Under the pieces are notes generated by a model. That model was not told the origin of the DNA and ran no database searches. It saw nothing but the letters and a program-made list of their open reading frames with translations. This document shows, in pieces, positions 1 to 60,526 of a stretch of DNA of 64,000 nt (position 1 is its first letter; each line of letters opens with the position of its first letter). This stretch comes from a virus. The position numbers and the translations under genes are program-made. Location: positions 1 through 64,000 of IMG/VR virus record IMGVR_UViG_3300046499_000591, one strand, 5' to 3'.

Positions 1-860
1 GCGTCGGCCAGCGGGCCCAGGTGGCGTTCGGCGACGCTCTCGACCTCGCCGAAGCCGCCGCCCGCCAGGCCATGGACGACGCCGGCCTGCACCCCGGCGA
101 CGTCGACGCCATCATCACCAGCCACACAACCAGTTGGACCGTGCCCGGCCTCGACGTGCACCTCGTCGAACGCCTCGGCCTGCGTCCCACCGTGGCCCGC
201 ATGCCGCTGTCGACCCTCGCCTGCGCCGGCGGCGCCCAGGCCCTGGTGCGCGCCCTCTACTTCACGCAGGCCCGGCCCGCGGCCCGCGTCCTGGTCGTCG
301 TCGCCGAAACCCTCTCCACGATTTACCACCAGTCGGAGAGCAGCCCGCAGTCGATGATTTACCGGGCTCTGTTCGGTGACAGCGCCGCCGCCTGCATCGT
401 CACCGGCGTCACCGAAGCCACCGCCGGCGGCCTCCCGGCCGGCTTCATCGCGCTCACCCCGCTCGAGCTGGTCCTGCCCAACAGTCTTGACCGCTACTGG
501 GGCGCCATCGACGATGAGGGCCTGCACTTCGAGTCCACCAAGGCCGCGGCCCGCGCACCCGCCGACGCCCTGCCGTACATAACCGACTGGCTGGGTGACC
601 GAATGATCAATTGGGTTGTTGCTCACCCCGGCGGCCCGCGCATAATTGACGATGTGGTGGCGGGAGTTGGTCTAGATGCGGACAAGGACGGCCGCCACTC
701 TCACGCCTCCCTCACCGAGAACGGCAACCTAGGCGGCGGCGCAGTCCTCGACGTGCTGCGCCGCACCCACGATGACCCGCCCGCACCCGGAGCCCCCGGT
801 GTGCTGGTCGCCTTCGGCCCCGGCTTCAATGTCGCCGGCGTCTACGGCACCTGGGCATAA
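1..860 (+). CDS. Type III polyketide synthase (chalcone-synthase-like), 5' end cut by the window edge
   Basis: A homodimeric ketosynthase family that condenses an acyl-CoA starter with malonyl-CoA, without an acyl carrier protein. The frame is open to base 1, so the true start lies upstream; 279 residues follow the GTG at 21, against about 350 for a whole enzyme. All three catalytic positions are visible: Cys in LACAGG (codon 222-224), His in AHPGGP (624-626) and Asn in ENGNLGG (726-728). The family C-terminal signature appears as FGPGF near residue 270. The missing N-terminus holds no catalytic residue, so the enzyme could be functional. The starter unit cannot be predicted. It lies on the late-gene strand just before small genes and the phage methyltransferase, an unusual place for a secondary-metabolite enzyme. 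Confidence 0.9.
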   Translation, partial: VGQRAQVAFGDALDLAEAAARQAMDDAGLHPGDVDAIITSHTTSWTVPGLDVHLVERLGLRPTVARMPLSTLACAGGAQALVRALYFTQARPAARVLVVVAETLSTIYHQSESSPQSMIYRALFGDSAAACIVTGVTEATAGGLPAGFIALTPLELVLPNSLDRYWGAIDDEGLHFESTKAAARAPADALPYITDWLGDRMINWVVAHPGGPRIIDDVVAGVGLDADKDGRHSHASLTENGNLGGGAVLDVLRRTHDDPPAPGAPGVLVAFGPGFNVAGVYGTWA

Positions 861-906: not shown

Positions 907-1677
907 ATGAGCATCTCCTCTCCGCAGGCAACCCGCAGACTCGCCCGTGACGGACGCGGTCACCTGACGCTGGTCCCCAGCCAAGACGACTCGGCCACCC
1001 CGGCTGACCCGGCGGACGACGACACCGACCGGCAGCCGGGCAAGCATGCCGACCAACACCGCAGGCCCACCCTCGCCGGCAGTGCCACCGTCCGCGCACT
1101 CATCGCCCTCGGAGCGCTCGCCTCGGCCCTCGGCATCCCGCTCGGCAAGCAGGCCGAGGCGTCGTTCACCATCCACATGCACGACCCCGCCATGCCCCTC
1201 GACCAGGCCGACACCCTCGTCCCCGACACCAACGACACCGTCGTCCCCGAGACCGCGCCGACCAAGACCGTCAACGCGACCGTCAACACGCCCCGGCTGA
1301 GCGCCGGGTACTGGACGCCCCCCGTGAAGCAGGTGGAGCCCGTCGTCTACAAGATGCGGTCTGCGGTCCCGGGGACCGGCCGGCACCGCAAGCCCACCCC
1401 GGCGATCCACACGTCCCGGGCGTCATCCGCCCCGGGTCGCGGCCGGCACCGCCGCACCACGCCCACCGCGCCCCCGTCCCGGCGGACGCTCCGCACGGGC
1501 GCAACCATCCAGGTCTCCGTGTCCGTGCCTGCACCCGTACACATGCACGGCTCCGGGCACGAGCACGAGCACGGGCACGAACACGGCCCCGGGCACGGGC
1601 ATGAGCGCGGGCACGGGCATGAGCGCGGGCACGAGCATGAGCGCGGGCACGAGCATGAGCGCATGCGCCTGTGCTGA
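907..1677 (+). CDS. Membrane-anchored protein with histidine-rich tail
   Basis: Family not recognised. From the ATG at 907 it has 256 residues: a charged N-terminal segment, one hydrophobic stretch (TVRALIALGALASALGIPLG, about residues 60-80), a Pro/Thr/Arg-rich middle, and a C-terminal run of Gly-His-Glu-His units with about 20 His in the last 45 residues. Such tails bind Zn, Ni or Co in other proteins, so metal binding is an inference. An in-frame start at 772 would overlap the PKS gene and lacks a ribosome site. The close spacing suggests co-transcription with the PKS gene. Confidence 0.6.
   Translation: MSISSPQATRRLARDGRGHLTLVPSQDDSATPADPADDDTDRQPGKHADQHRRPTLAGSATVRALIALGALASALGIPLGKQAEASFTIHMHDPAMPLDQADTLVPDTNDTVVPETAPTKTVNATVNTPRLSAGYWTPPVKQVEPVVYKMRSAVPGTGRHRKPTPAIHTSRASSAPGRGRHRRTTPTAPPSRRTLRTGATIQVSVSVPAPVHMHGSGHEHEHGHEHGPGHGHERGHGHERGHEHERGHEHERMRLC
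1555..1668 (+). repeat. Tandem repeat encoding Gly-His-Glu-His
   Basis: Short units built on GGGCACGAGCAT and GGGCATGAGCGC repeat about eight times with small changes and encode the His-rich tail of the preceding gene. The near-identity of adjacent units suggests expansion by slippage. Confidence 0.8.
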
Positions 1678-1735
1678 TTTGACTCCGAGCCCGTAGTGAA
1701 CCCACTATGTGCTCAGCTGAAATACATGTCACCGA

Positions 1736-1761
1736 GGGCCGCCCCGCACGGGCGGCCCTTT
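1736..1761 (+). terminator. Hairpin terminator
   Basis: Perfect 9-bp stem GGGCCGCCC / GGGCGGCCC with a 5-nt loop, followed by TTT. It follows the His-rich gene. Confidence 0.65.
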
Positions 1762-1789: not shown

Positions 1790-1990
1790 ATGCCGACGGC
1801 GTATCGCCCTGTCCTGCTGTCCCCCTCGGACGTCGCCCACCTCATCGGCAAGCCGGTGGGCACCGTGAAGCGGTGGGCACACGAGGGCCGCATCACCTCC
1901 CACGACGGCAGGTACGACTACCTCGAGGTCCGCGACGTCGCCACCGGCGACGTCAAGGTGCCACCGAGGCGCACCCTGGCCGCGGTCTAA
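1790..1990 (+). CDS. Small helix-turn-helix protein (MerR/excisionase-like)
   Basis: 66 residues from the ATG at 1790, preceded by GGGGAGG. The segment LSPSDVAHLIGKPVGTVKRW followed by AHEGRI fits the MerR/Xis winged helix in which a short helix-turn-helix reads DNA. It ends in a basic PPRRT tail. It could be an excisionase or a small regulator; no recombinase gene is adjacent to decide this. Confidence 0.6.
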   Translation: MPTAYRPVLLSPSDVAHLIGKPVGTVKRWAHEGRITSHDGRYDYLEVRDVATGDVKVPPRRTLAAV

Positions 1991-2904: not shown

Positions 2905-4392
2905 ATGCCCGCCGTCTATGTCGAGACCCGTGAAGTTCCGCTCGATGAGCTGACCCACTTCGAAGGCAACGCCAAGCGAGGCGACGTCGAGGCCATCCGC
3001 GCCTCGATCCGCCGTAACGGCCAGTACCGCAGCCTCGTCGTGCGACGCATCGACAACGGGCCCCTGGTCGTCCTCGCCGGCAACCACACCATGCGCGCGC
3101 TCGGCGCCGAGGGCTACGAAACTGCCCGGTGCGAGATCGTCCTCTGTGACGACGACGAGGCCCGCCGCATCAACCTGGCGGACAACAAGTTGGCCGAGCT
3201 CGGCGGATACGACAACGACGCCCTCGCCGAACTCCTCTCCTACATGGACGGGGATTACGAGGGCACCGGCTACACCGACGACGACGTCATGAAGCTGATC
3301 ACCCCGCCGGACATCGACGACCTCACCGACGACGATGACGGGCCGGACGACGAGCCGGCCGATAACCCCTCCCTCGCGGACCGGTTCCTCATCCCGCCGT
3401 TCGACGTCCTCGACGCCCGCCAAGGCTGGTGGCGCACCCGTAAACGGCAGTGGCTCTCCCTCGGCATGCGTTCCGAGGTCGGGCGCGGCGACAACCTCGT
3501 CTTCGAGGGCATGGCCAAGGCCGACCCGAAGTACTACGACAAGAAGCGTGCCGTCGAGCAGGCCCTCGGCCGGCCGCTGACGAGCGCCGAGTTCGAGGCC
3601 GACCACTACGTACGCCCCGACGACGCCGTCGCCTCCGGCACGTCCGTGTTCGACCCCGTCGTGTGTGAACTGGCCTACCGATGGTTCTGCCCGCCGGCCG
3701 GCCAGATCCTCGACCCGTTCGCCGGCGGATCGGTCCGCGGCATCGTCGCCGGCATCCTCGGCCGCCCGTACCACGGCAACGACCTCCGGCCCGAGCAGGT
3801 CGAGAGCAACCGCGAGCAGCGCGACGAGTTCCAGAACCGCCGCATGCTCGCCGCCGACCCGTCCTGGTCCATCGGCGACAGCGCCGACTGGGTCAAGACC
3901 CTCGAGCCGAACAGCGCCGACATGGTGTTCACGTGCCCGCCGTACTACGACCTCGAGGAGTACTCGGACAACCCGGCCGACCTCTCCTCCATGTCCTACG
4001 ACGGCTTCGACGAGGCGTACGCGCGGATCATCGCTGGCGTCGCGAAGGCCCTGAAACCGAACCGGTTCGCCGTGTTCGTGACCGGTGACGCCCGCGACAA
4101 CCGCGGCGGCCTCCACGACCTCCGCGGCTCGACGATCCGCGCCGCGGTCGCCGCCGGCCTCACCTACGCGTCCGGCGCCGTCCTCGTCAGCCCGATCGGT
4201 ACGGCCGCCGTCATGGCCGGCCGCACGTTCACCGGCACCCGCGGCCTCGCCCGCACCCATCAAGACGTCCTCGTGTTCTGCAAGGGCAACCGGTCCGAGG
4301 CGGCGAAGGTGTGTGGTGACGTTGACGTCCACCTGCCCGACGGCGTCGAGGAAGCATTCGCCGCCGACGAGGAAGTCGCCGAAGCGGCTTGA
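2905..4392 (+). CDS. ParB-domain / DNA methyltransferase fusion
   Basis: 495 residues. Residues 1-125 are a ParB/sulfiredoxin-like domain (VPLDELTHFEGNAKRGD, then VLAGNHTMRALG, then NLADNKLAELGGYDND). Residues about 250-430 are an amino-methyltransferase: the target motif TCPPYYDLEEY at about 343 and the SAM-binding DPFAGG at about 270. This is an N4-cytosine or N6-adenine type enzyme. The fusion is common in actinophages, where it probably protects phage DNA from host restriction. No restriction enzyme lies nearby. Confidence 0.9.
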   Translation: MPAVYVETREVPLDELTHFEGNAKRGDVEAIRASIRRNGQYRSLVVRRIDNGPLVVLAGNHTMRALGAEGYETARCEIVLCDDDEARRINLADNKLAELGGYDNDALAELLSYMDGDYEGTGYTDDDVMKLITPPDIDDLTDDDDGPDDEPADNPSLADRFLIPPFDVLDARQGWWRTRKRQWLSLGMRSEVGRGDNLVFEGMAKADPKYYDKKRAVEQALGRPLTSAEFEADHYVRPDDAVASGTSVFDPVVCELAYRWFCPPAGQILDPFAGGSVRGIVAGILGRPYHGNDLRPEQVESNREQRDEFQNRRMLAADPSWSIGDSADWVKTLEPNSADMVFTCPPYYDLEEYSDNPADLSSMSYDGFDEAYARIIAGVAKALKPNRFAVFVTGDARDNRGGLHDLRGSTIRAAVAAGLTYASGAVLVSPIGTAAVMAGRTFTGTRGLARTHQDVLVFCKGNRSEAAKVCGDVDVHLPDGVEEAFAADEEVAEAA

Positions 4393-5763: not shown

Positions 5764-7389
5764 GTGTCCAGCGACATGGACGCGCTCGCGATGGCCGCCG
5801 ACCGCCTGGAAGGGCGTAGCGCTGCCGCCGACCGCCACCCCACACCGCACGACCTCGCCCGCGCACTCGACCCGAAGGTCGTCCGTACGCCGGCGCTCGC
5901 CCTCCTCGACCAGAACCTCATGGACGTCGCCGAGGGCCGATGCCGGCGCCTCATCTGGACCATGCCCCCGCAGGAGGGAAAATCCCAGCGGGTGTCGCGA
6001 ACGTTCCCCGCGTGGATGCTCGCCCGGGACCCGGACAAGCGCATCGCCATCGCGTCGTACGAGGCGACCACCGCCCGCCGGTGGGGCCGCGCGATCCGTA
6101 ACGACATCCGCGACAACCGCGAGATCTTCGGCCTCGCCATCAGCGCCGACACGTCGTCGGCCCAGGAGTGGCAGATCCAGGACCACGCCGGCGGCGTCTA
6201 CTCCGTCGGTATCCAAGGCGCGCTCACCGGCCGGCCCGTCGACGTGCTGATCGTCGACGACCCGATCAAGGACCGCGCCCAGGCCGAGAGCCTGGTGTTC
6301 CGGCAGCGGGCATGGGACTTCTGGACCGACACCGCCCGCACCCGACTGGCGCCGGACGCCGTCGTGATCGTCGTCCTCACCCGCTGGCACGAGGACGACC
6401 TCGCCGGCCGCCTCCTCGCCCAAGACGTCCGCGGCGAGTGGCGGCACGTCAACATCCCCGCGGAGGCCGACCACAAGCCCGAGGAAGGGCAGACCGACCC
6501 CCTCGGCCGGCAGCCCGGCGAGTTCCTTCTTTCGGCCCGCGGCCGCACCCCGAAGGACTGGCAAGACACCCGGCACGACGTCGGCTCGAGGACGTGGACG
6601 AGCCTCTACCAAGGCCGGCCGGCCCCGCAGTCCGGCGACGTATGGAAACGCCACTGGTGGCGCCGCTACGGCACACCGATGTGGTCGCAGCACCCGGACC
6701 ACCCGGACGCGTACACGGTCGCCGAGTTCGACCAACTGATCATGTCGTGGGACATGACGTTCAAAGACACCAAGTCGAGTGACTACGTCGTCGGTCAGGT
6801 GTGGGCCCGCAAGGGCGCGAACGTCTACCTTCTCGACCAGGTCCGCAAACGGCTGTCGTTCACCGACACGTTGACCGCGTTCCAGGCCATGGTGAAGCGG
6901 TGGCCCCAGGCCACCGCCAAGCTCGTCGAGGACAAGGCCAACGGCACGGCGGTCATCAACACCCTGAAGTCGAAAATCCCCGGCATCATCGAGGTCACGC
7001 CGACCGAGAGCAAATACGCCCGCGCCAACGCGGTCGCCCCCGTCATCGAGGCCGGTAACGCGTTCCTCCCGGAGAAGGCCATCGGGCTGTTCGACCCGGA
7101 CGAACTCACCGACGAGGCCGCGGCGTTCCCGAACGCCACGCACGACGACCAGGTCGACGCGGCGTCCCAGGCCCTCGCCTATCTCCTCCTCGACCAGTCC
7201 GGCGCCCACGCATGGATCAGTCACTTCCGGGCCCTGGCCGAGGCCGGCCAGACCGACGACGAGCCGGCCGACGACACCCCGCCGGCCGACGACGCGTCAC
7301 CAGACCTCGACCCGTTCGACGCCATGTCGGAAGACCCGGCCGCCATCCGTAAGCGCATGCGTGACGCCCGCTTCCGGGACCAGCAATAA
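5764..7389 (+). CDS. terL: Terminase large subunit
   Basis: 541 residues. The ATPase that pumps DNA into the procapsid and the nuclease that cuts it. Walker A is the variant MPPQEGKSQ at residues 67-75 and Walker B is VDVLIVDDP ending near 164. The C-terminal RNase-H-like nuclease shows SWDMTFKDTKSSDY (Asp 330) and a later HDDQVDA (460-466). The length is normal for the family. It starts with GTG after GGGAGGAGG, 60 bases after the previous gene. Confidence 0.93.
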   Translation: MSSDMDALAMAADRLEGRSAAADRHPTPHDLARALDPKVVRTPALALLDQNLMDVAEGRCRRLIWTMPPQEGKSQRVSRTFPAWMLARDPDKRIAIASYEATTARRWGRAIRNDIRDNREIFGLAISADTSSAQEWQIQDHAGGVYSVGIQGALTGRPVDVLIVDDPIKDRAQAESLVFRQRAWDFWTDTARTRLAPDAVVIVVLTRWHEDDLAGRLLAQDVRGEWRHVNIPAEADHKPEEGQTDPLGRQPGEFLLSARGRTPKDWQDTRHDVGSRTWTSLYQGRPAPQSGDVWKRHWWRRYGTPMWSQHPDHPDAYTVAEFDQLIMSWDMTFKDTKSSDYVVGQVWARKGANVYLLDQVRKRLSFTDTLTAFQAMVKRWPQATAKLVEDKANGTAVINTLKSKIPGIIEVTPTESKYARANAVAPVIEAGNAFLPEKAIGLFDPDELTDEAAAFPNATHDDQVDAASQALAYLLLDQSGAHAWISHFRALAEAGQTDDEPADDTPPADDASPDLDPFDAMSEDPAAIRKRMRDARFRDQQ

Positions 7390-8483: not shown

Positions 8484-10946
8484 GTGACGATCTCCGCCGT
8501 CGGTAGCCTCCAGCAGAACCGCGGTTCCGGCGTCAGCACCCTGACCGTGTCCGGCGCCGTGGTGAGCAACGCATGGCTGGTCATCGTGCGCGTCGCCGAC
8601 CAGGCAATCGGCGTCAACTCCATCACCGGCGGCGGCCCCGACACCTGGACCCGGGTTGCGTCGGTGGCGCAGGCGGTCGTCAACGGCACCATTGAGATCT
8701 GGCTCGGCCAGATCACATCAACGGCGTCGACGACGGTCACCGCCTCCTTCAACTCGGACATCACCGGCGTGGCAACCGAGCTGTGCGCCATGCAGTTCTC
8801 CTCCAACCTCGCCAATACGGCCTGGACCGCGGACGGTACGGGCGGCAGCACCTCCGGCTCCGCCACCACGGCGCTCACCTGGTCCACGCTCACCCCGAGC
8901 GCGGGCAAGGAGCTATACATCGGGTACGCGTACGTCAGTAACACCGTCGTGGCCGGCTCCACGAGCGGGTTCACGTACGCCGTCACGGCCGCCGGTAACG
9001 GCGTGCTGTGGAACCCCGCCGTCACCGGGGCGGTCACACCGACCGCCACGCAGACCCCGGCGGGCAACGTCGCCACCCTCGCCGTCCTCATCCGGGCCGC
9101 TGGCACGGTCAGCCTCGCCGGCACGGCCGCCTCGTCGACCGCGCTGGGCCGACAACCCGGGCTCATCGGGGCGGTGACCGGGACCAGTAGCGCGAGCATC
9201 GTCCGGGCCGCGTCCATGGCCCGCAGCGTGACCGTAGCGGCGTCAGGCGCGGTCGGCCGGGCCATCGCCCGCCGCCTGGCCGCGACCGCGACGGCCGCGC
9301 GGACCATCGCGAACACCACCGTGCGGGCGCTCCTCTTCGTGGCGGCCGTCGCCGGCATCGGCGCCACGGTCCGGGGAGTTGGCCAGCCGCTCCCCGCGAC
9401 GGCCACCAGCACGAGGACGCTACGCCGCGGCGCCGGCCCGACCTACCTTGCCGGGGCCGCCGGAACCACCAGCGTGCAGCGTGGCATAGCGGCCGCCTTC
9501 CCCACCGCCCGGGCCGCCGGCGCCGCACTCGCCCGCGGGCTGCAACTCGGCTACACCCGGGCCGCACACGGCAACACGCTCTCCGTCTACGTCCCCGGCC
9601 TCAACTTCGCGGCCACCGCCCTCGGTGCCGCGGTGACCCGCCGCGGTGCCGGCCGCGTTCTGGCGGCGTCCGCGGTCGCCGCCGGCACCCTGCGGCGCGC
9701 GGCCGCAACGGTGGTCACCGTCCCCGCCGCGGCCGCCGCCACGCTCCGCCGGGCCGCGGCCCGCGCGTACGGCACCACGGCCAACTCCACGGCGGCCGCC
9801 GGCGTCCGGGCGACGCTCGCCCGCACCTACACGGCGACGGCGACCGCGGCCGGCACGACGGCCCGAGCGATCGTCGTGTACCTCGCCACGGCGCGGACCG
9901 CCACCGCGGCGTTCGCAACGAACACGGCGCGACACGTCACCGTGGCCGTCGCGATCACCGCCGGCGCCACACTGGCCATCGGCCGGGCCCTGTACGCCGT
10001 GCTCGTGGCCACCGCCACCGCGGCCGGCAGCATCCGCCGGACCCTCAACCAAACCCACACCACCGGGACGGCCACCGCTACCAGCGCCCTGGCCCGCACG
10101 GTAGGCACCAGCCTGCCGGCGACATCGGGGGCCGCCGGGACGCTCCGTAAGGGCCTATCGCGCCCCCAGGTGGCCACAGTTACCGGGACGGCCGTTCTGG
10201 CCCGCCAGACGGCGCGCCAGATCGTTTTGGCGGCCACTACGACCGCCGCCCGGGCGCTCACCTGGACCCGAACCAACCTCATCACCCTTACGGCCGCCGC
10301 GTACGGCACTGTCGCCCTCGGACGCGGCGCCCGCACCACGCTGCCAGCATCGGGCACCGGCACGGCCGGCATCACCCGCGGCGTCGGCGTCACCACCACG
10401 GCGGCCGCGGCCGCCGACGGCGACATCACCCGATGGCTCGCACTGACCGCGTCCGGCATCGCGGCCGGAACCGGTGCCGTCCGCCGCGCACTGGCACGCC
10501 CGTTCACCGCCGTCGTGTCCACGCACCCGGCGATACGGTCCGCGGTCGCCCGCGTCCTCGAGGCCGCGGCGACGCCGACAGCGGGCATGCTGCGGGCGGC
10601 CGCACTACGGCACACGGCGACCGCCACCACGACCGGGGCCCTGGTCCGCGGGGCGGCACTGAACGCCCGCGCAAACGCGCTGGCTGGCGCACTACTCCGC
10701 CGGGACATCGGCCGGCCCACAACCGTCACGGTCCACGGCACGGCGTCCACGGGCCTCGCCCGCGTCTTCGCCCTCCTCCTTGCGGCGGCCGCCGTCGCCA
10801 CGGCGGCGACGAGCACGCAACTCATCCGCACACTCCGCGACCTCGCCCTCGCGACCACCGGCGTCATCGCCCGCTGGACGGTCGCCGAGCCCGGCGCCAC
10901 ATGGCGGGCCTGGTTCACCGGAAGCCGCTGGAACACCGACGAATAG
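8484..10946 (+). CDS. Virion-region protein with about 30 copies of an 18-residue repeat
   Basis: 820 residues. Residues 1-205 form a beta-rich head (IEIWLGQITSTASTTVTASF). Residues about 206-800 are a degenerate tandem array with a period near 18 and a rough consensus xATATAAGTLRRALARxL; examples are PATATSTRTLRRGAGPTY and AASAVAAGTLRRAAATVV. The repeat is Ala/Thr-rich with regularly placed Arg and is strongly basic. An 18-residue period fits a beta-solenoid rung but also an amphipathic helix. Its place before the portal suggests a virion spike, fibre or DNA-binding internal protein. No TM segment or enzyme motif is seen. Confidence 0.75.
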   Translation: MTISAVGSLQQNRGSGVSTLTVSGAVVSNAWLVIVRVADQAIGVNSITGGGPDTWTRVASVAQAVVNGTIEIWLGQITSTASTTVTASFNSDITGVATELCAMQFSSNLANTAWTADGTGGSTSGSATTALTWSTLTPSAGKELYIGYAYVSNTVVAGSTSGFTYAVTAAGNGVLWNPAVTGAVTPTATQTPAGNVATLAVLIRAAGTVSLAGTAASSTALGRQPGLIGAVTGTSSASIVRAASMARSVTVAASGAVGRAIARRLAATATAARTIANTTVRALLFVAAVAGIGATVRGVGQPLPATATSTRTLRRGAGPTYLAGAAGTTSVQRGIAAAFPTARAAGAALARGLQLGYTRAAHGNTLSVYVPGLNFAATALGAAVTRRGAGRVLAASAVAAGTLRRAAATVVTVPAAAAATLRRAAARAYGTTANSTAAAGVRATLARTYTATATAAGTTARAIVVYLATARTATAAFATNTARHVTVAVAITAGATLAIGRALYAVLVATATAAGSIRRTLNQTHTTGTATATSALARTVGTSLPATSGAAGTLRKGLSRPQVATVTGTAVLARQTARQIVLAATTTAARALTWTRTNLITLTAAAYGTVALGRGARTTLPASGTGTAGITRGVGVTTTAAAAADGDITRWLALTASGIAAGTGAVRRALARPFTAVVSTHPAIRSAVARVLEAAATPTAGMLRAAALRHTATATTTGALVRGAALNARANALAGALLRRDIGRPTTVTVHGTASTGLARVFALLLAAAAVATAATSTQLIRTLRDLALATTGVIARWTVAEPGATWRAWFTGSRWNTDE

Positions 10947-11726: not shown

Positions 11727-14700
11727 ATGAGCCTCCGAGACCGGTTCGTTAAGGCGTTCGGTAACCGGCCCCCGGCCGAGATGCAGGCGGCCGAGGCAGA
11801 CGCCGGGATGAGCGCCACACGGCCGTTCTCCCCGGGCGCGCCGATCGCCCCGTACGACGGGTACAGCCGCACCCCCCGCACCCACGACTACGCCAGCGGA
11901 TACAACATCTCCGCCCGGCCGAAGACCAACGAGCGCGTCTCCTTCGACTCGCTCCGCGGCCTCGTCGAGTCGTACGACGTCGCCCAGATGTGCATCTGGC
12001 ACCGCATCGACTCCATACGCGCCCTCGACTGGTCCCTCGTCCCCGCCCGCGGGTTCCGCGGCGAGGCCGACGAACTCATCGACATCGGCATGACGGTGCT
12101 CGCCAAGCCCGACCGGCAGACCCCGTTCTCGTCGTGGCTCGCGAAATGGCTGTACGACATCCTCGCGTACGACGCCGGCGCCCTCTACCGGCTCCGCAAC
12201 CGCGGCGGCCGCGCGATCGGCCTCCGCGTCGTCGACGGCACGACAATTGCGCCGCTGCTCGACTACTGGGGCAACAGCCCTGAGGCGCCGGCCGAGGCGT
12301 ACGTCCAGTACGCGAACGGCCTTCCGTGGAACTGGCTCACCCGCAACGACCTCGTCTATGTGCCGTTCCGGCCCCGGTCGAACAGCCCCTACGGCCTCGC
12401 TCCGCTCGAGACGATCCTCCTCAACGCCAACACCGATCTTCGGTTCCAGGCGTACTTCCTCCAGCGGTTCACCGAGGGCAACATCCCGCAGGCGTTCGCG
12501 TCGGCGCCGGAGTCGTGGACCCCGCAGCAGATCGAGGAGTTCCAAGGCTATTGGGACGCCTTCCTCCGCGGTGACCAGGCCGTCAAGCACCAAATCAAGT
12601 GGATGCCCGGCGGCGGCAAGATTGAGTGGTCGAACGAGAAGGAGTTCAGCGACTCGTTCTCCCTCTTCCTCATGCGGAAGACGTGCGCGGCCTACCACAT
12701 CGTCCCGTCGGATCTTGGTTTCACCGAGTCGGTGAACAAGTCCTCGGGTGAGACCCAGGCGGACGTGCAGCACCGCGTCGGTGACCTCCCCCTCGTCTCG
12801 CACGTCCAGGACGTCATCACCAACTTCCTCCAGCACGACCTGGGGCTCCCGCTCGAGTTCGCGTTCGACACCGGGCAGGAGAAGGAAGACCGGCTGGCGA
12901 CCGCCCAGGCGTGGGGTATCTACATCGACAAGGGCATGGCCAGCCCCGACGAGGGCCGCGAAGAACTCCTCGGCCTCCCCGCCGACCCGCGCCGGCCCAC
13001 CCCCCGTTTCTACAACAACAACAACGCCGGCCCCGTCCCGCTCCTCGCCATCGAGGGCGTCGCCGGCCACATCGACCCGGAGACGTACGGGCCGGCCGAC
13101 GACCAGCCGGTACCGGCGCAGCCGTTCGTGCCGGCCTCCGGCACCATCCCGGCCGCCGGCACCACCGACGCGGCCGCCGCCGACGCCGCCCAGGACACGC
13201 ACCAGACCGAGGCCCGACACACCGCCCAGGCCGTCGACGTCACGAAGGAACTGGACGCGGCCCTGGCCCGACGCCTCGGCCCGTCCGCCGACGTCACGAA
13301 GGAAATGGGCGCGTTCCGCTCGTTCCGCAAGGCACGCCGGCGCACCGGCGCATGGCGTGACTTCGAGTTCCGGCACGTCGACACGGTCACCGCGCACCGC
13401 CTCAACCAGTCCGGCCGCGCGCAGATACGTAAGGACGCCGGCGAGATCGCATGCGCCGGCCTCGCCGTTCGCGCCGCCGACACCGGCCGCGTCCTCATGC
13501 TCCAGCGAGCCCTGGACCCGACCGACCCGGCCGGCGGCACGTGGGAGTTCCCCGGCGGCCACCTCGAAGGCGAGGAACCCCCGATCACGGGCGCCATCCG
13601 CGAGTGGTCCGAGGAGACCGGGTTCATTCTCCCGTTCGACATTGAGGAGCTCGCCGCCCACGCCTTCGGCACCGGTTCCGGGTGGACGTCCGGCATCTAC
13701 GCCGGGTTCGTCTACACGGTGCCGTCCGAATCGGTCCTCGACCTCGGCCGACGCGACCAGGTGAACAACCCGGACGACCCCGACGGCGACGTCGTCGAGG
13801 CCCTGGCGTGGTGGGACCCCGAGCAGCTACGCGGTAATCCCGTCGTCCGCCCGGAACTCCTGGCCAACCTGGACGCCGTCCTCGACGCGCTCACGGACAC
13901 GTTCGACGACGACGCGGACGACACACTCGCCGAGTTCGACGAACTCGACGCGGCGCTCATCAAGGCGGCCCGCGACCCAAAAGGCGCCGGCGCTGACGAA
14001 GGCGCGGGCCGGTGGCTCGGATGGCGCATGGACCTCAAGGCCATCCGCTACTGGGCTCCCCGCATCGCCGCCGCCTTCCGCAGCGCCGTCAACCCCCGCC
14101 GCCTCGCCGAATCATGGCTCGCCCTGAACCCCCGCTCCACCGCGGGACGTAAGGCCGACCGCATCCGCGACCTCGACAAGCAGGCCCAACGGTGGCTGAA
14201 GAAGAACGCCCCGGACCTCGAGGCCGCCATCACGGAAACCCTCGGCGGCGTCTACACCGACGGCTACATCATCGGTGTCCTCGCCGCCGAGGACGCCGCC
14301 GGCATCAGCGCGGCCGCCGCCTCCGGCATCACCTGGGACACGTGGGAGCCCGGCGACGCGAACGCCGCCCGTCTCCTCCTCGGTGACGCCGGCGACGGCT
14401 CCGGCCTCGAGGCCCTGCTCAACGAGAGCGGGGTGACGATCCGCTCAATCGCCGCGACCCGCCTCAAGACCCTCGGCCGTGTCCTCGCCGAAGGCGCCGA
14501 GCGGGGCGACAGCCCCACGACGATCGGCAAGGCAATCGAGAGCCTGCTCTCCAACCCGACCCGCGCCGAGATGATCGCCACGACGGAACTGACCCGGGCC
14601 GTGTCCCAGGCCAGCCTCAACACCTACCTGGCGAACGGCATCGAGCGCATCGAGTGGGACAGCGCCGGCGACGGCCGCGTCTGCCCGATCTGCCAGACCA

Positions 14701-14813
14701 ACCAAGACGCCGGCTCGCGCCGCCCCGGAGACAGCTTCCCCTCCGGGCAGACCTCACCGCCCGGACACCCCTGGTGCCGCTGCGCCCTCGTACCCGTGAC
14801 CGGAGGATCTTGA
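11727..14813 (+). CDS. Portal - Nudix hydrolase - MuF-like fusion protein
   Basis: 1028 residues with three parts. Residues 1-430 are a portal protein (WHRIDSIRALDWSLVPARGF, later DLVYVPFRPRSNSPYG and ETQADVQHR). Residues about 575-725 are a Nudix domain with an unbroken signature GX5EX7REUXEEXGU at 611-633 (Arg625-Glu626, Glu629-Glu630), preceded by GGTWEFPGG. Residues about 870-1028 match the Mu F / SPP1 gp7 minor head protein, ending in CPICQ (986-989) and WCRCALVPV. Portal-MuF fusions are known in actinophages; MuF proteins are packaged and can be ejected. A Nudix domain between the two is unusual and would be carried in the virion, at about 12 copies if the portal ring is normal. Confidence 0.88.
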   Translation: MSLRDRFVKAFGNRPPAEMQAAEADAGMSATRPFSPGAPIAPYDGYSRTPRTHDYASGYNISARPKTNERVSFDSLRGLVESYDVAQMCIWHRIDSIRALDWSLVPARGFRGEADELIDIGMTVLAKPDRQTPFSSWLAKWLYDILAYDAGALYRLRNRGGRAIGLRVVDGTTIAPLLDYWGNSPEAPAEAYVQYANGLPWNWLTRNDLVYVPFRPRSNSPYGLAPLETILLNANTDLRFQAYFLQRFTEGNIPQAFASAPESWTPQQIEEFQGYWDAFLRGDQAVKHQIKWMPGGGKIEWSNEKEFSDSFSLFLMRKTCAAYHIVPSDLGFTESVNKSSGETQADVQHRVGDLPLVSHVQDVITNFLQHDLGLPLEFAFDTGQEKEDRLATAQAWGIYIDKGMASPDEGREELLGLPADPRRPTPRFYNNNNAGPVPLLAIEGVAGHIDPETYGPADDQPVPAQPFVPASGTIPAAGTTDAAAADAAQDTHQTEARHTAQAVDVTKELDAALARRLGPSADVTKEMGAFRSFRKARRRTGAWRDFEFRHVDTVTAHRLNQSGRAQIRKDAGEIACAGLAVRAADTGRVLMLQRALDPTDPAGGTWEFPGGHLEGEEPPITGAIREWSEETGFILPFDIEELAAHAFGTGSGWTSGIYAGFVYTVPSESVLDLGRRDQVNNPDDPDGDVVEALAWWDPEQLRGNPVVRPELLANLDAVLDALTDTFDDDADDTLAEFDELDAALIKAARDPKGAGADEGAGRWLGWRMDLKAIRYWAPRIAAAFRSAVNPRRLAESWLALNPRSTAGRKADRIRDLDKQAQRWLKKNAPDLEAAITETLGGVYTDGYIIGVLAAEDAAGISAAAASGITWDTWEPGDANAARLLLGDAGDGSGLEALLNESGVTIRSIAATRLKTLGRVLAEGAERGDSPTTIGKAIESLLSNPTRAEMIATTELTRAVSQASLNTYLANGIERIEWDSAGDGRVCPICQTNQDAGSRRPGDSFPSGQTSPPGHPWCRCALVPVTGGS

Positions 14814-40797: not shown

Positions 40798-40983
40798 TTA
40801 CCAGGTGCGCGGCCCCCCGTAGTACGCCCATTCGGCCTTCCGGTCGGCCTCGACCTGGATCAGAATGTCGCGCATGAAGTCACCGGTGCCGTACTTGCAG
40901 CCGGGCTTGTGCGGGAACGGGAACTGGTTCGACGTCACGCCGCAGCCGCCGCCGTCGCACGTGTCGTAGCCGTACCGGATCAC
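40798..40983 (-). CDS. Small Cys-containing protein overlapping the recombinase stop
   Basis: 61 residues from a GTG (40983) that overlaps the recombinase stop by 4 bases (GTGA). Cys residues in CDGGGCG and PGCKYG, then an acidic helix. The overlap implies translational coupling with the recombinase. Unknown function. Confidence 0.55.
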   Translation of the reverse strand: MIRYGYDTCDGGGCGVTSNQFPFPHKPGCKYGTGDFMRDILIQVEADRKAEWAYYGGPRTW

Positions 40984-42056
40984 AGGCCGATGCCTCTCAT
41001 GGGGTTCTCTTCGCGGTCGTCCACGGGCCGGATGTACGCGAGGACTTGCGGCGAGTTCTCCGCCCACCGGCCCTGGGTGCGGATCGCGGAGACGGGCGCC
41101 TTCTGTCGGTACGCCTCGCTCGCGCCGCCGGCCCGGAAGCCGTGGGCGGTGTAGGTCAGTCCGTCGTCGGGGAACACGACGGCGGCCCGGCGCTGCACCA
41201 TCTCGTTGATGGCGTCGCCGGACATGGAGTCGTGGGTGATCTGGTCCCACTGGTTGATGGCGCGCAGGAGTCGGCCGGTGGTGATGCCGCGGTCGGCGAG
41301 CGCGGCCCGGTACGCGCGGACGACGCGGACGGGGTCGGTGTCGTTGTGGACGCCGCGCGGCACGATGACCTCGACGCCGTCGCCCTCCTGGTCGGTCTTG
41401 GAGGCGCGGATCAGGATGGTGAGGTCGCCCTCGTCGTCCTCGCTGATGTCTTCCAGGTGTAGGCCGGCCAGTTCGGAGCGGCGGGCCATCATCGCGAACC
41501 CGAGGACGAGGATGACCCGGTCGCGGAGGCCGGCGAGGGTGGTGAGGTCGCACGTGTCGATGAGGGCGCGCAGCTTGGCGAGGTTGATGGGCGGCGCCTT
41601 GCGCTTGCGGGTGCCGGCCTTCGCGCGCCCCTTCTTGTAGGCGGCGAGCAGGCGCAGCGCGCCGGCGGTGTCCGGCTGGTCGCGGTAGCCGGCCGACTTG
41701 TGGCGGGAGCGGATGACGCCGAGGGCCTGCTCGATGCTGGACGGGGCCGGCGTGCGGCCGGTGCGCTCCGACGGGGTCACGGTCATGTGCCGGACGTACT
41801 CGGTGAGGGTGGCCGGCGTCGCCGGCAGCGGCACCCGCCCCTGGACGGTGCACCAGCCGGCGAACGTCTGCCACTGTCGGGTGTAGGCGCGTTGGGTGTT
41901 CTCGGGGACGGAGTCGACGAGGGCCTGGCGGGTCTCGTCGCTCACCTCGTGGTCGCGGTCGGTGTGGACGAGGGGCGTCTCGGGGCGTGCCGCCGGCAGG
42001 AGGTGGTCGTCGTCGACGAGCTCGGCGTCGACCACTTCGGATTCGTCGTCTGTCAC
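40980..42056 (-). CDS. Cre-like tyrosine recombinase
   Basis: 358 residues from a GTG with GAGGGC upstream. The N-terminal core-binding domain (SVPENTQRAYTRQWQTFAGW) and catalytic domain (about 155-358) are complete: Arg in ARRSEL (192-193), Lys220, HGFR (305-308), Trp331 in GRW, and the nucleophile Tyr341 in LAYIRP. The end (AYIRPVDDREENPMRG) resembles phage P1 Cre more than typical phage integrases, and there is no arm-binding domain. A lox-like site lies 14 bp upstream of the gene. Dimer resolution of a circular plasmid prophage is the best reading; chromosomal integration is the alternative. Confidence 0.8.
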   Translation of the reverse strand: MTDDESEVVDAELVDDDHLLPAARPETPLVHTDRDHEVSDETRQALVDSVPENTQRAYTRQWQTFAGWCTVQGRVPLPATPATLTEYVRHMTVTPSERTGRTPAPSSIEQALGVIRSRHKSAGYRDQPDTAGALRLLAAYKKGRAKAGTRKRKAPPINLAKLRALIDTCDLTTLAGLRDRVILVLGFAMMARRSELAGLHLEDISEDDEGDLTILIRASKTDQEGDGVEVIVPRGVHNDTDPVRVVRAYRAALADRGITTGRLLRAINQWDQITHDSMSGDAINEMVQRRAAVVFPDDGLTYTAHGFRAGGASEAYRQKAPVSAIRTQGRWAENSPQVLAYIRPVDDREENPMRGIGL

Positions 42057-58215: not shown

Positions 58216-59130
58216 CTAGTCCACCGTCACACCCGCCTCGGTGAGTGCCGCGTTGAGGACCCGCACTAGGTCCCGTACCCGCGCCGGATCCTTGCGGACC
58301 GCCTCGCGCACGGTCTCCGGCACGAGCAGCTTCGCGGCCCGCTCCACGACGGCGCCCGGGTCGGCGGCCGCCGCGAGCGCCGGCGTCTCCTCGGGGTCGA
58401 CCCTCGTGGTGATGCCCAGGAGTGCCTTCGCCTTCTCCAGCTCGTCGGGGGTCGGCGTCGCCCCCTTCTTCGTCTCGCACGCCGTCTTCCAGATCTTGAC
58501 GACCCGGTCGGCCCCGTGCTGCAACCGCACCGAGTGCAGCGCGTCGACCTGCCGGGAGGACAAGTCCTCGAGGACGTAGCCGGCGCCCCGAAGGACCGCG
58601 AGGAGCGGGAGCGTCTGCGTGATCCGGTAGCCGGTGCGTTCCGAGAGGTCGTGTTGCTCGCGGAGGTACTTCGCGAAGGACCGGTAGGTCTTCCCGTCGT
58701 TCCCCTTGATCAGCTTGTAGAGCTTGTGCTCGTGGACCCAGCACAGGTACGGGCCGGCCGCGGCGATGAACTCCTCGTTGGCCGCGTCCACCTTCGCCTT
58801 CCACTGGGCCTTCGCCCCGTGGATGCCGCGCTCGCACACGGCGAGCTGTTCGGCCGGCTCGGCGTCCGGGCTGGGCAACGCCGGCGGCACGAACGCCGTC
58901 GGCGCCACGAACGTCGGCATGACCACGGCCGGGGCCGCGGCGGGTTCCGCGGGACGGGTGGCCGGGACGGCCGCCGGCTGCGCCCCGCCGACGGGTGCGT
59001 CTCCCTGCTCCCCGCCCTTTGTCTCCTCCCACTCCGCCATCACCTGCGCGCGCGTCCGGACCACCGGCGCCGGAGCGCCCGGCGGCTCCAACCCCGTCGA
59101 CGGCAGCTCCTTGGGCTTGTACTTACTCAC
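58216..59130 (-). CDS. Centromere-binding partition protein candidate
   Basis: 304 residues. The start overlaps the ParA stop by 4 bases. Residues 25-95 are Ala/Pro-rich. Residues 115-210 are helical with a helix-turn-helix-like part (SFAKYLREQHDLSERTGYRI then TQTLPLLAVLRG). There is no ParB/Srx domain, so it is a non-canonical ParB. The operon order and the adjacent palindromes support its DNA-binding role. Confidence 0.65.
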   Translation of the reverse strand: MSKYKPKELPSTGLEPPGAPAPVVRTRAQVMAEWEETKGGEQGDAPVGGAQPAAVPATRPAEPAAAPAVVMPTFVAPTAFVPPALPSPDAEPAEQLAVCERGIHGAKAQWKAKVDAANEEFIAAAGPYLCWVHEHKLYKLIKGNDGKTYRSFAKYLREQHDLSERTGYRITQTLPLLAVLRGAGYVLEDLSSRQVDALHSVRLQHGADRVVKIWKTACETKKGATPTPDELEKAKALLGITTRVDPEETPALAAAADPGAVVERAAKLLVPETVREAVRKDPARVRDLVRVLNAALTEAGVTVD

Positions 59131-60272
59131 GCCGCCAACTCCTTCGCCACGGCGCGCATCGTCTCCGCCTGCGGGCTGTCCGGCGCGTACTCAAGGAGCG
59201 GGATCTCGTAGTCGGACGACTCGCGGCCCTCCACGGAGTCCTTGAGGTGGGCCAGCACACCGGGCGTCGTGAGTTCGTTCCACGCGTCGTAGAACGACCG
59301 GGTCACCGTGCCCTTACGGGAGTCGTACGCGTTGACGATGATGCCGAGCTGGTCGACGACGATGCCGGTCCGCTCGCACTGGGTGACGATCTGGTTGTTG
59401 AGGAGCTTGTACGCGCGGAACGACGACTTGTCGGCCCACACGGGGACGAGGACACCGGAGCGCTCCATCAGCTCACCCGGCCGGCGCTGCACGTAGTCGA
59501 TGGCGAGGTCGAGGCCGAGCCCGAGGTTCGGCGGGCCGTCGAGGAGGACGACGTCGTAGTTGGCCTCGACGGGGGCGAGGGCGCGGGCGAGGCAGGTGTC
59601 CCGGCCGGCGCGCATGGAGGCGAGTTCGGCGTCCATGAGGAACGCGTCCTCGGAGGCCGGCAGTATGTGCAGCCGTCCACCGAACCGCTCGCCGTCGAGG
59701 GCGATGATGGACCGGGCGAGGTGCGTCGCGGCCTTGCCGAGCATGTGCTGGAGGAGGCTGTCGCCGCCGAGCGGAAGTTCGGCGACCTGGAGCCGGGCGG
59801 AGAGGTGGCCCTGCGGGTCGTAGTCGACGAGGAGGACGCGGAGCCCCATCTCGGCGAGGGCCTGGCCGACGCCGGCAGTGATGAACGTCTTTCCTACGCC
59901 GCCCTTTTGATTGGCAATCAGGACGCGCTGCACCGGTTGCGACACGAGCCGGTGTTCCGGGGACGGGTGGGCCTTGAGCCACACCGTGACCGCTTGCGCC
60001 ATGCCCTGGACCTTGGTGAGTCCGCGGGCGTCGCACTCGGCTTCGAAGCGTGCCGGGCCGCCGGGAGGGAGGAAGACGCCCCACGACTTGGCGCCCTCGA
60101 CCGGGACCGCGTCGGCGGCCGGCGCGGCGTACCAGAGGTTGAGGGCGTGGGCGGCGGCGTCCTGGACGTTCACCCCGTGCTCGGCCGCACGGATCTTGAG
60201 GTCCCGCCGCATCGACGGCATGAGGTTGACAAGCAACTTCTCGCGCGCGTTGTCAGGTGTTTCGGTCGTCAT
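59127..60272 (-). CDS. parA: ParA-family partition ATPase with N-terminal DNA-binding domain
   Basis: 381 residues from the ATG at 60272; the frame is open upstream but poorly protein-like there. Deviant Walker A KGGVGKT (123-129), Walker A' VLLVDYDPQGHLS and Walker B YDVVLLDGPPNLG are all present. Residues 13-47 (LLVNLMPSMRRDLKIRAAEH) and 66-101 look like two ribbon-helix-helix units, so the protein probably represses its own operon, as type Ia ParA proteins do with a different domain. It moves plasmid copies over the nucleoid. Confidence 0.88.
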   Translation of the reverse strand: MTTETPDNAREKLLVNLMPSMRRDLKIRAAEHGVNVQDAAAHALNLWYAAPAADAVPVEGAKSWGVFLPPGGPARFEAECDARGLTKVQGMAQAVTVWLKAHPSPEHRLVSQPVQRVLIANQKGGVGKTFITAGVGQALAEMGLRVLLVDYDPQGHLSARLQVAELPLGGDSLLQHMLGKAATHLARSIIALDGERFGGRLHILPASEDAFLMDAELASMRAGRDTCLARALAPVEANYDVVLLDGPPNLGLGLDLAIDYVQRRPGELMERSGVLVPVWADKSSFRAYKLLNNQIVTQCERTGIVVDQLGIIVNAYDSRKGTVTRSFYDAWNELTTPGVLAHLKDSVEGRESSDYEIPLLEYAPDSPQAETMRAVAKELAA

Positions 60273-60526
60273 GGCGAGCAAATTACCAGTCTCGGTTCCG
60301 GATGCCGGTGGGACGCCACACAACGACACCGGAGGGTGACCCGGGCGGCCGAACGCGCGTACACATCGGGTGGCGTGGTGGGGTGGCGCGTTGCCGTGAC
60401 GTCGCTCTACAATCACCCGCATGCCGGGGCTTTCCCCGGCGACCTTGAAGGACTCGGCCGTCCTCTTCGCTTGTGATTCATGTCGGCAAACCTGGGCATG
60501 AGCGGAGGGGGCGGCTCCTTTATGCG

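Follow-up and report, generated by a model that had tools for sequence, protein, structure and literature searches.

The window analysed here, 64,000 nucleotides long (positions 1-64000 of a 98,216-bp virus record), begins inside a gene. Frame 3..860 on the plus strand is open and encodes the C-terminal 285 codons plus stop of a type III polyketide synthase (PKS), as identified by Pfam, PDB and end-overlap analysis. The gene is truncated by the window edge only, and its N-terminal 142 codons lie at the opposite end of the record (97789-98216). The complete synthase has 357 amino acids and a GTG start at record position 97789, preceded by GGAGG. Inside the PKS gene the ends of the record share a 214-bp overlap (window 1-214 against record 98003-98216) with 3 mismatches, every one synonymous, which points to a circular molecule from a mixed population; the mismatches suggest that the sample contained a mixed phage population. 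Since the record closes on itself within the PKS gene, the gene lies inside the circular element and not at a chromosomal junction. The original prediction had placed the synthase on a phage-plasmid, and leftward extension around the circular record revealed no chromosomal junction upstream of it. The PKS was also present in the related elements that were found, and the independent records L005, L006 (99,284 bp), L007, L008 (97,787 bp) and L086 had identical gene order around it. These five, L009, L017 and the window element are the window-type members (n=8) referred to below.

The protein encoded by frame 3..860 exceeded the Pfam cut-off of 27 bits for each chalcone/stilbene synthase domain (Chal_sti_synt_N, 1e-20, 74.6 bits; Chal_sti_synt_C, 7e-8, 33.1 bits), and the best solved structure in a PDB sequence search was germicidin synthase (3v7i). 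The triad C146, H280 and N314 and the CHS-type gatekeeper Phe pair F196 and F248 are present (numbering of the full protein). Within the family, the Cys and the His were conserved in 84/84 sequences, the Asn in 83/84 and each gatekeeper Phe in 84/84. The fold predicted for the L006 homologue matched germicidin synthase, THNS/RppA and Mtb PKS11, which have the fold, the triad and the gatekeeper Phe in common with the family PKS and were 29-30% identical to the L006 model in structure alignments. Pfam, the PDB match and the triad residues agree with the claim of a synthase with an intact Cys-His-Asn triad: the gene is a type III PKS with an intact-looking active site, predicted to add malonyl-CoA units iteratively to an acyl starter. 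A KAS III/FabH enzyme misread as a PKS was rejected, since FabH-type models gave lower Pfam scores and the two gatekeeper Phe residues of the CHS type are conserved. DpgA (3,5-dihydroxyphenylacetyl-CoA synthase), the best NCBIfam match, was rejected with 91 bits against an equivalog cut-off of 425. In plasmid annotation the PKS is called “PhlD”, which is an annotation label only.

Downstream of the PKS, a frame at 907..1677 (+) encodes a single-pass membrane protein with a conserved N-terminus and TM segment, for which no Pfam match was found. Its position was conserved in all 8 window-type members; its His-rich tail was not conserved and had 10-27 His across relatives. The gene was absent from the pZL12-type and chromosomal units described below, so the earlier idea that this protein belongs to the same unit as the synthase holds in the window lineage and not outside it. 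A strong hairpin with a T-rich tail and an 11-bp stem was found by scan at 1734..1760 (+) as a candidate terminator, and a GC-rich GGGCCGCCC/GGGCGGCCC-type hairpin stands shortly 3' of the membrane-protein gene in all relatives. The first gene after the hairpin (1790..1990, +) encodes a small HTH_17/excisionase-like protein with a weak Pfam HTH_17 match and a conserved position, and we regarded it as context outside the unit. A tRNA-Trp gene (anticodon CCA) lies among small genes at 2761-2833, with a terminator-like hairpin after it. The frame at 2905-4392, immediately ahead of the terminase genes, matched a DNA methylase and, weakly, the ParB N-terminal domain, and its position was conserved in relatives. 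The terminase large subunit is encoded at 5764..7389 (+; Pfam Terminase_6N/6C; PHROG 38, 1.6e-102).

An MltR-type regulator paired with the synthase

A gene for a 296-aa MltR-type regulator, identified by Pfam, lies directly upstream of the PKS on the plus strand (record 96790-97680, outside the window). It escaped the original prediction because it is located across the origin of the record. The protein scored 49.3 bits with MLTR_LBD (8e-13, cut-off 26.3) and 24.8 bits with HTH_31, just below the cut-off of 27, while the L012 and L014 homologues were above that cut-off. The AlphaFold2 model of the L006 regulator (pLDDT 89.7) had a helical N-domain, and its top fold match was MltR (3pxp, E 2.5e-8). 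The MmyB/MltR regulators (3pxp; PF17765), its closest fold match, have an XRE helix-turn-helix and a PAS-like domain as here; MltR was 15% identical to the L006 model in the structural alignment, and the partner enzyme here is a type III PKS. The regulator is of the MmyB/MltR type, with an XRE helix-turn-helix and a PAS-like domain for which model and sequence predict ligand binding. In the MltR crystal a fatty acid occupied the ligand pocket, and MmyB responds to small furan signals (PMC3406030).

Upstream of the regulator gene we found the palindrome CCTGCAAATCTCGCAGG (record 96710-96726), which occurs as a single copy in the whole 98-kb element. It had no more than 1 mismatch in L005-L009 and 2 in L017, and its flanks have diverged. 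The pZL12-type and chromosomal copies have another conserved block at the corresponding place, and the palindrome differs between lineages. The pZL12 promoter block was unique in pZL12, with 63 bits against 2 for the next hit (pZL12 was among the training rows). With one site each in the element (the palindrome) and in pZL12 (its own block), a role of the regulator as a general phage switch was rejected; there was no sign of wider regulator targets. The palindrome is operator-like, and another protein could in principle use it. The palindrome and regulator on the 5' side and the hairpin on the 3' side set the regulator-PKS-membrane-protein unit off from the packaging genes. Among window-type members, the PKS had a dN/dS of 0.26-0.48 and the regulator one of 0.23-0.43, which indicates that both genes are kept by purifying selection in this lineage.

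The pairing emerged from queries with the PKS only. These recovered 71 loci from genomes and 29 viral ones, of which 95 were testable after removal of duplicates and with enough upstream sequence. The regulator was directly upstream of the PKS on the same strand in 87/95 testable loci, a count that takes in L004 and L109, two loci in which the record ends within the PKS. Another 2/95 had one gene between regulator and PKS, and in the remaining 6/95 (L015, L016, L067, L073, L079 and L085) no regulator was found upstream of the PKS. As a control within the same 12 genomes, the regulator was beside 0/15 ordinary type III PKS genes and beside 9/12 family members (P ~5e-5). Regulator and PKS distances were correlated (Mantel rho 0.84, with 0/2000 permutations as high), but this co-divergence could be explained by linkage alone. 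A synthase and a ligand-binding regulator kept as a conserved adjacent pair are what is looked for in a synthase-receptor signalling system; we do not file the pair as such a system, and a response of the regulator to the product is a candidate only. In one plasmid record (CP042280; L082/L108), and in this record only, regulator and PKS are each broken into several frames, by sequencing error or decay.

Carrier elements, distribution and evolution

The element carries phage genes for terminase, portal, tape measure, tail proteins and endolysin, and on the minus strand a ParA-type partition ATPase (59127..60422; Pfam AAA_31 6e-23, CbiA/ParA 4e-17). No replication initiator was recognised among the genes identified on the element. 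The virion and packaging genes, the plasmid-type ParA ATPase and the overlapping ends of this one record make phage-plasmid a fair name, judged from the sequence record alone, and the carrier proposed originally was of this kind. The terminase shared 54% identity with its counterpart in Brevibacterium phage LuckyBarnes and only about 30% with pZL12-type terminases. The host is probably Streptomyces, judging from L017 and from the hosts of pZL12-type relatives.

Type III PKS genes are already known on Streptomyces phage-plasmids (pZL12 and pSLE1). The record of phage ZL12 (GQ919031) is annotated with one: on the circular phage-plasmid pZL12, the PKS gene pZL12.100 stands directly behind the MltR-type regulator gene pZL12.99 on the same strand. 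Its PKS was 50% and its regulator 42% identical to those of the window element. However, only about 15 of the 117 called genes of the window element had matches in pZL12, and pZL12 is without the membrane protein and has its PKS far from the packaging genes. Instead of the shared terminase and most core genes that define the pZL12 type, these terminase and gene matches were found, and on sequence comparison the window element represents a phage lineage other than pZL12, with the PKS and its neighbour common to both. The pair is also carried by pSLE1 of S. leeuwenhoekii (L014), an 86-kb circular phage-like plasmid which, unlike the window element, belongs to the pZL12 lineage. In 2015 the type III PKS of pSLE1 was noted as lying outside any cluster, and the parts of that paper available to us do not discuss its regulator partner (PMC4487206). 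A survey of actinobacterial prophages found type III PKS genes in plasmid prophages only (PMC10023795).

The pair was thus found in two phage-plasmid lineages with different terminases (window-type and pZL12-type), and also among ordinary genes in at least 6 recurrent chromosomal settings. For most of the chromosomal loci tested, the genome had no pZL12-type terminase. A search of the plasmid collection gave 58 records that matched the PKS at E 1e-20 or better, and among the matches listed the PKS was present in 23/31 Streptomyces plasmids with a related terminase. The other 8/31 listed terminase-positive plasmids were not among the PKS matches; the gene is frequent there without being universal. 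Among the isolated phages of INPHARED, only phage ZL12 (two records) had the PKS. The original statement that phages rarely carry such enzymes is therefore right for isolated phages, but it does not describe the listed Streptomyces phage-plasmids.

A PKS tree of 70 rows, comprising pair-linked PKSs and sampled ordinary Streptomyces type III PKSs, put the pair-linked PKSs in one group apart from the sampled ordinary ones with 100% support. The window lineage formed a single clade, while pZL12-type and chromosomal PKSs were interleaved, with well-supported branches that force at least 5 switches between the two. Gene-neighbourhood comparison found no larger biosynthetic cluster around the PKS, and the regulator was its sole constant neighbour. 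In three chromosomal or linear-plasmid copies of the pair, an MBL-fold hydrolase gene stands between regulator and PKS (L051, 8877-9761; L068, 8921-9757; L143, 3887-4885), and on linear plasmids (L140-L142 and L144) the regulator subfamily occurs without the PKS. This suggests that enzymes other than the PKS can be partners of the regulator, whose ligand may be something other than the product of the PKS. The orphan regulators of L140, L141 and L142, on linear Streptomyces plasmids, were 44-45% identical and are each followed by a small gene, with ParA/ParB genes nearby and no PKS; pFRL5 (L144) has the regulator and an annotated MBL-fold gene, with no PKS. In L017, a close relative within an 11.6-Mb Streptomyces contig with a partial terminase match nearby, an insertion-sequence-like element with a transposase-like frame splits the PKS (8600-10010). 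This relative may be chromosomally integrated, and the split gene indicates that the PKS is dispensable, at least in L017.

Possible function of the regulator-synthase unit

The occurrence of the pair in a second phage-plasmid family and on many Streptomyces chromosomes suggests a mobile chemical control circuit. We propose, with a probability of roughly 0.5, that the PKS is the enzyme half of a self-contained, mobile, ligand-controlled regulator-synthase cassette with feedback. The regulator would most likely bind the palindrome directly upstream of its own gene and control the transcription unit regulator-PKS(-membrane protein), closed by the hairpin before the packaging genes. From an acyl starter and malonyl-CoA the PKS would form, by condensation, a small molecule that by analogy is alkylpyrone- or resorcinol-like. 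The most economical use of the arrangement would be feedback, in which this product, or its fatty-acyl precursor, is the ligand of the regulator; that the regulator senses one of the two is what we infer from the position of an acyl-consuming synthase beside a regulator of this family. As a lysogen or plasmid, a resident phage-plasmid would then both produce and sense a compound of its own, presumably to its benefit. A comparable neighbourhood is SGR_6891-afsA, where an MmyB-family regulator adjoins the A-factor synthase gene afsA and a functional link is only proposed (PMC3406030); there too the regulator stands beside a small signal synthase gene, although AfsA is not a PKS. In the literature searched, from which subscription journals were mostly missing, no paper joining MmyB-type regulators with type III PKSs was found. 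What is new here is the cassette formed by regulator and synthase together with a control region of its own; we did not find a description of the partner.

Reports of type III PKSs on phage-plasmids go back to pZL12 and pSLE1, and the genes were left unexplained because no biosynthetic cluster surrounds them. A constant ligand-binding regulator with a conserved promoter region turns the orphan enzyme into a testable two-gene system, and the cassette offers a compact route to a new natural-product class together with a natural product-responsive sensor. If the product is the ligand, temperate phages would make and sense a polyketide signal. As a full quorum circuit, the PKS would supply a diffusible signal, the MltR-type protein would be its receptor and the element would sense the density of other carriers, which we consider rather doubtful. 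Such a circuit would be the small-molecule counterpart of peptide (arbitrium-type) phage communication, but the operator data suggest that it would act on its own unit and not directly on lysis genes.

The main rival is straightforward regulation of a pathway that makes a useful compound: the pair would be regulated metabolic cargo without feedback, making an antimicrobial, a pigment or a membrane lipid that helps host or lysogen, and the MltR-type protein would be an ordinary pathway-specific activator answering a host cue, as in MmyB and methylenomycin. We regard this as a serious possibility. Since MmyB acts as a pathway-specific activator, control of the pathway may be simple and lack any feedback, and a link of MmyB-like regulators to antibiotic clusters has been described (PMC3406030). 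The pair is moreover common on chromosomes, and the repeated exchange between chromosomes and phage-plasmids in the tree is as expected of cargo. However, no tailoring, export or resistance genes lie beside the pair, and the authors of the pSLE1 paper likewise report no cluster around the PKS (PMC4487206). The operator-like site also occurs only once per element, which suggests that the regulator is dedicated to this unit.

The remaining readings concern the phage itself. A product that protects element or host against other phages, by superinfection exclusion or chemical anti-phage defence, would suit resident prophages and the presence of the PKS in 23/31 listed pZL12-type phage-plasmids and the window-type ones found, but the PKS is also widespread on chromosomes outside any phage context, and we think this use improbable. 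The original prediction leaned towards an auxiliary metabolic gene expressed late, with the packaging genes in lytic growth, and altering host metabolites. Its strand and position stood, since in window-type relatives too the PKS lies on the terminase strand a few kb upstream of the terminase. Late expression is weakened by the unit's own regulator, the conserved palindrome upstream and the conserved hairpin before the packaging genes, and in pZL12 the pair is about 24 kb from the terminase region, elsewhere on the map; a simple late gene is accordingly quite improbable in our judgement. An assembly or classification artefact, in which a phage was joined to the end of a chromosomal contig with a PKS, would fit a PKS at the record end and an imperfect overlap, but the overlapping ends and the identical gene order in independent L005-L008 and L086 rule out an assembly junction or chromosomal fragment, and we give this explanation next to no weight.

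Two further frames of the element are recorded here. The integrase-like gene at 40980-42056 (-) had no Pfam match and was 32% identical to the pZL12 integrase. The single frame at 11727-14813 seems to be an unusual fusion of a portal protein (residues 50-515) with a NUDIX-like domain (574-703) and, further on, a head-morphogenesis/MuF-like domain (895-1025).
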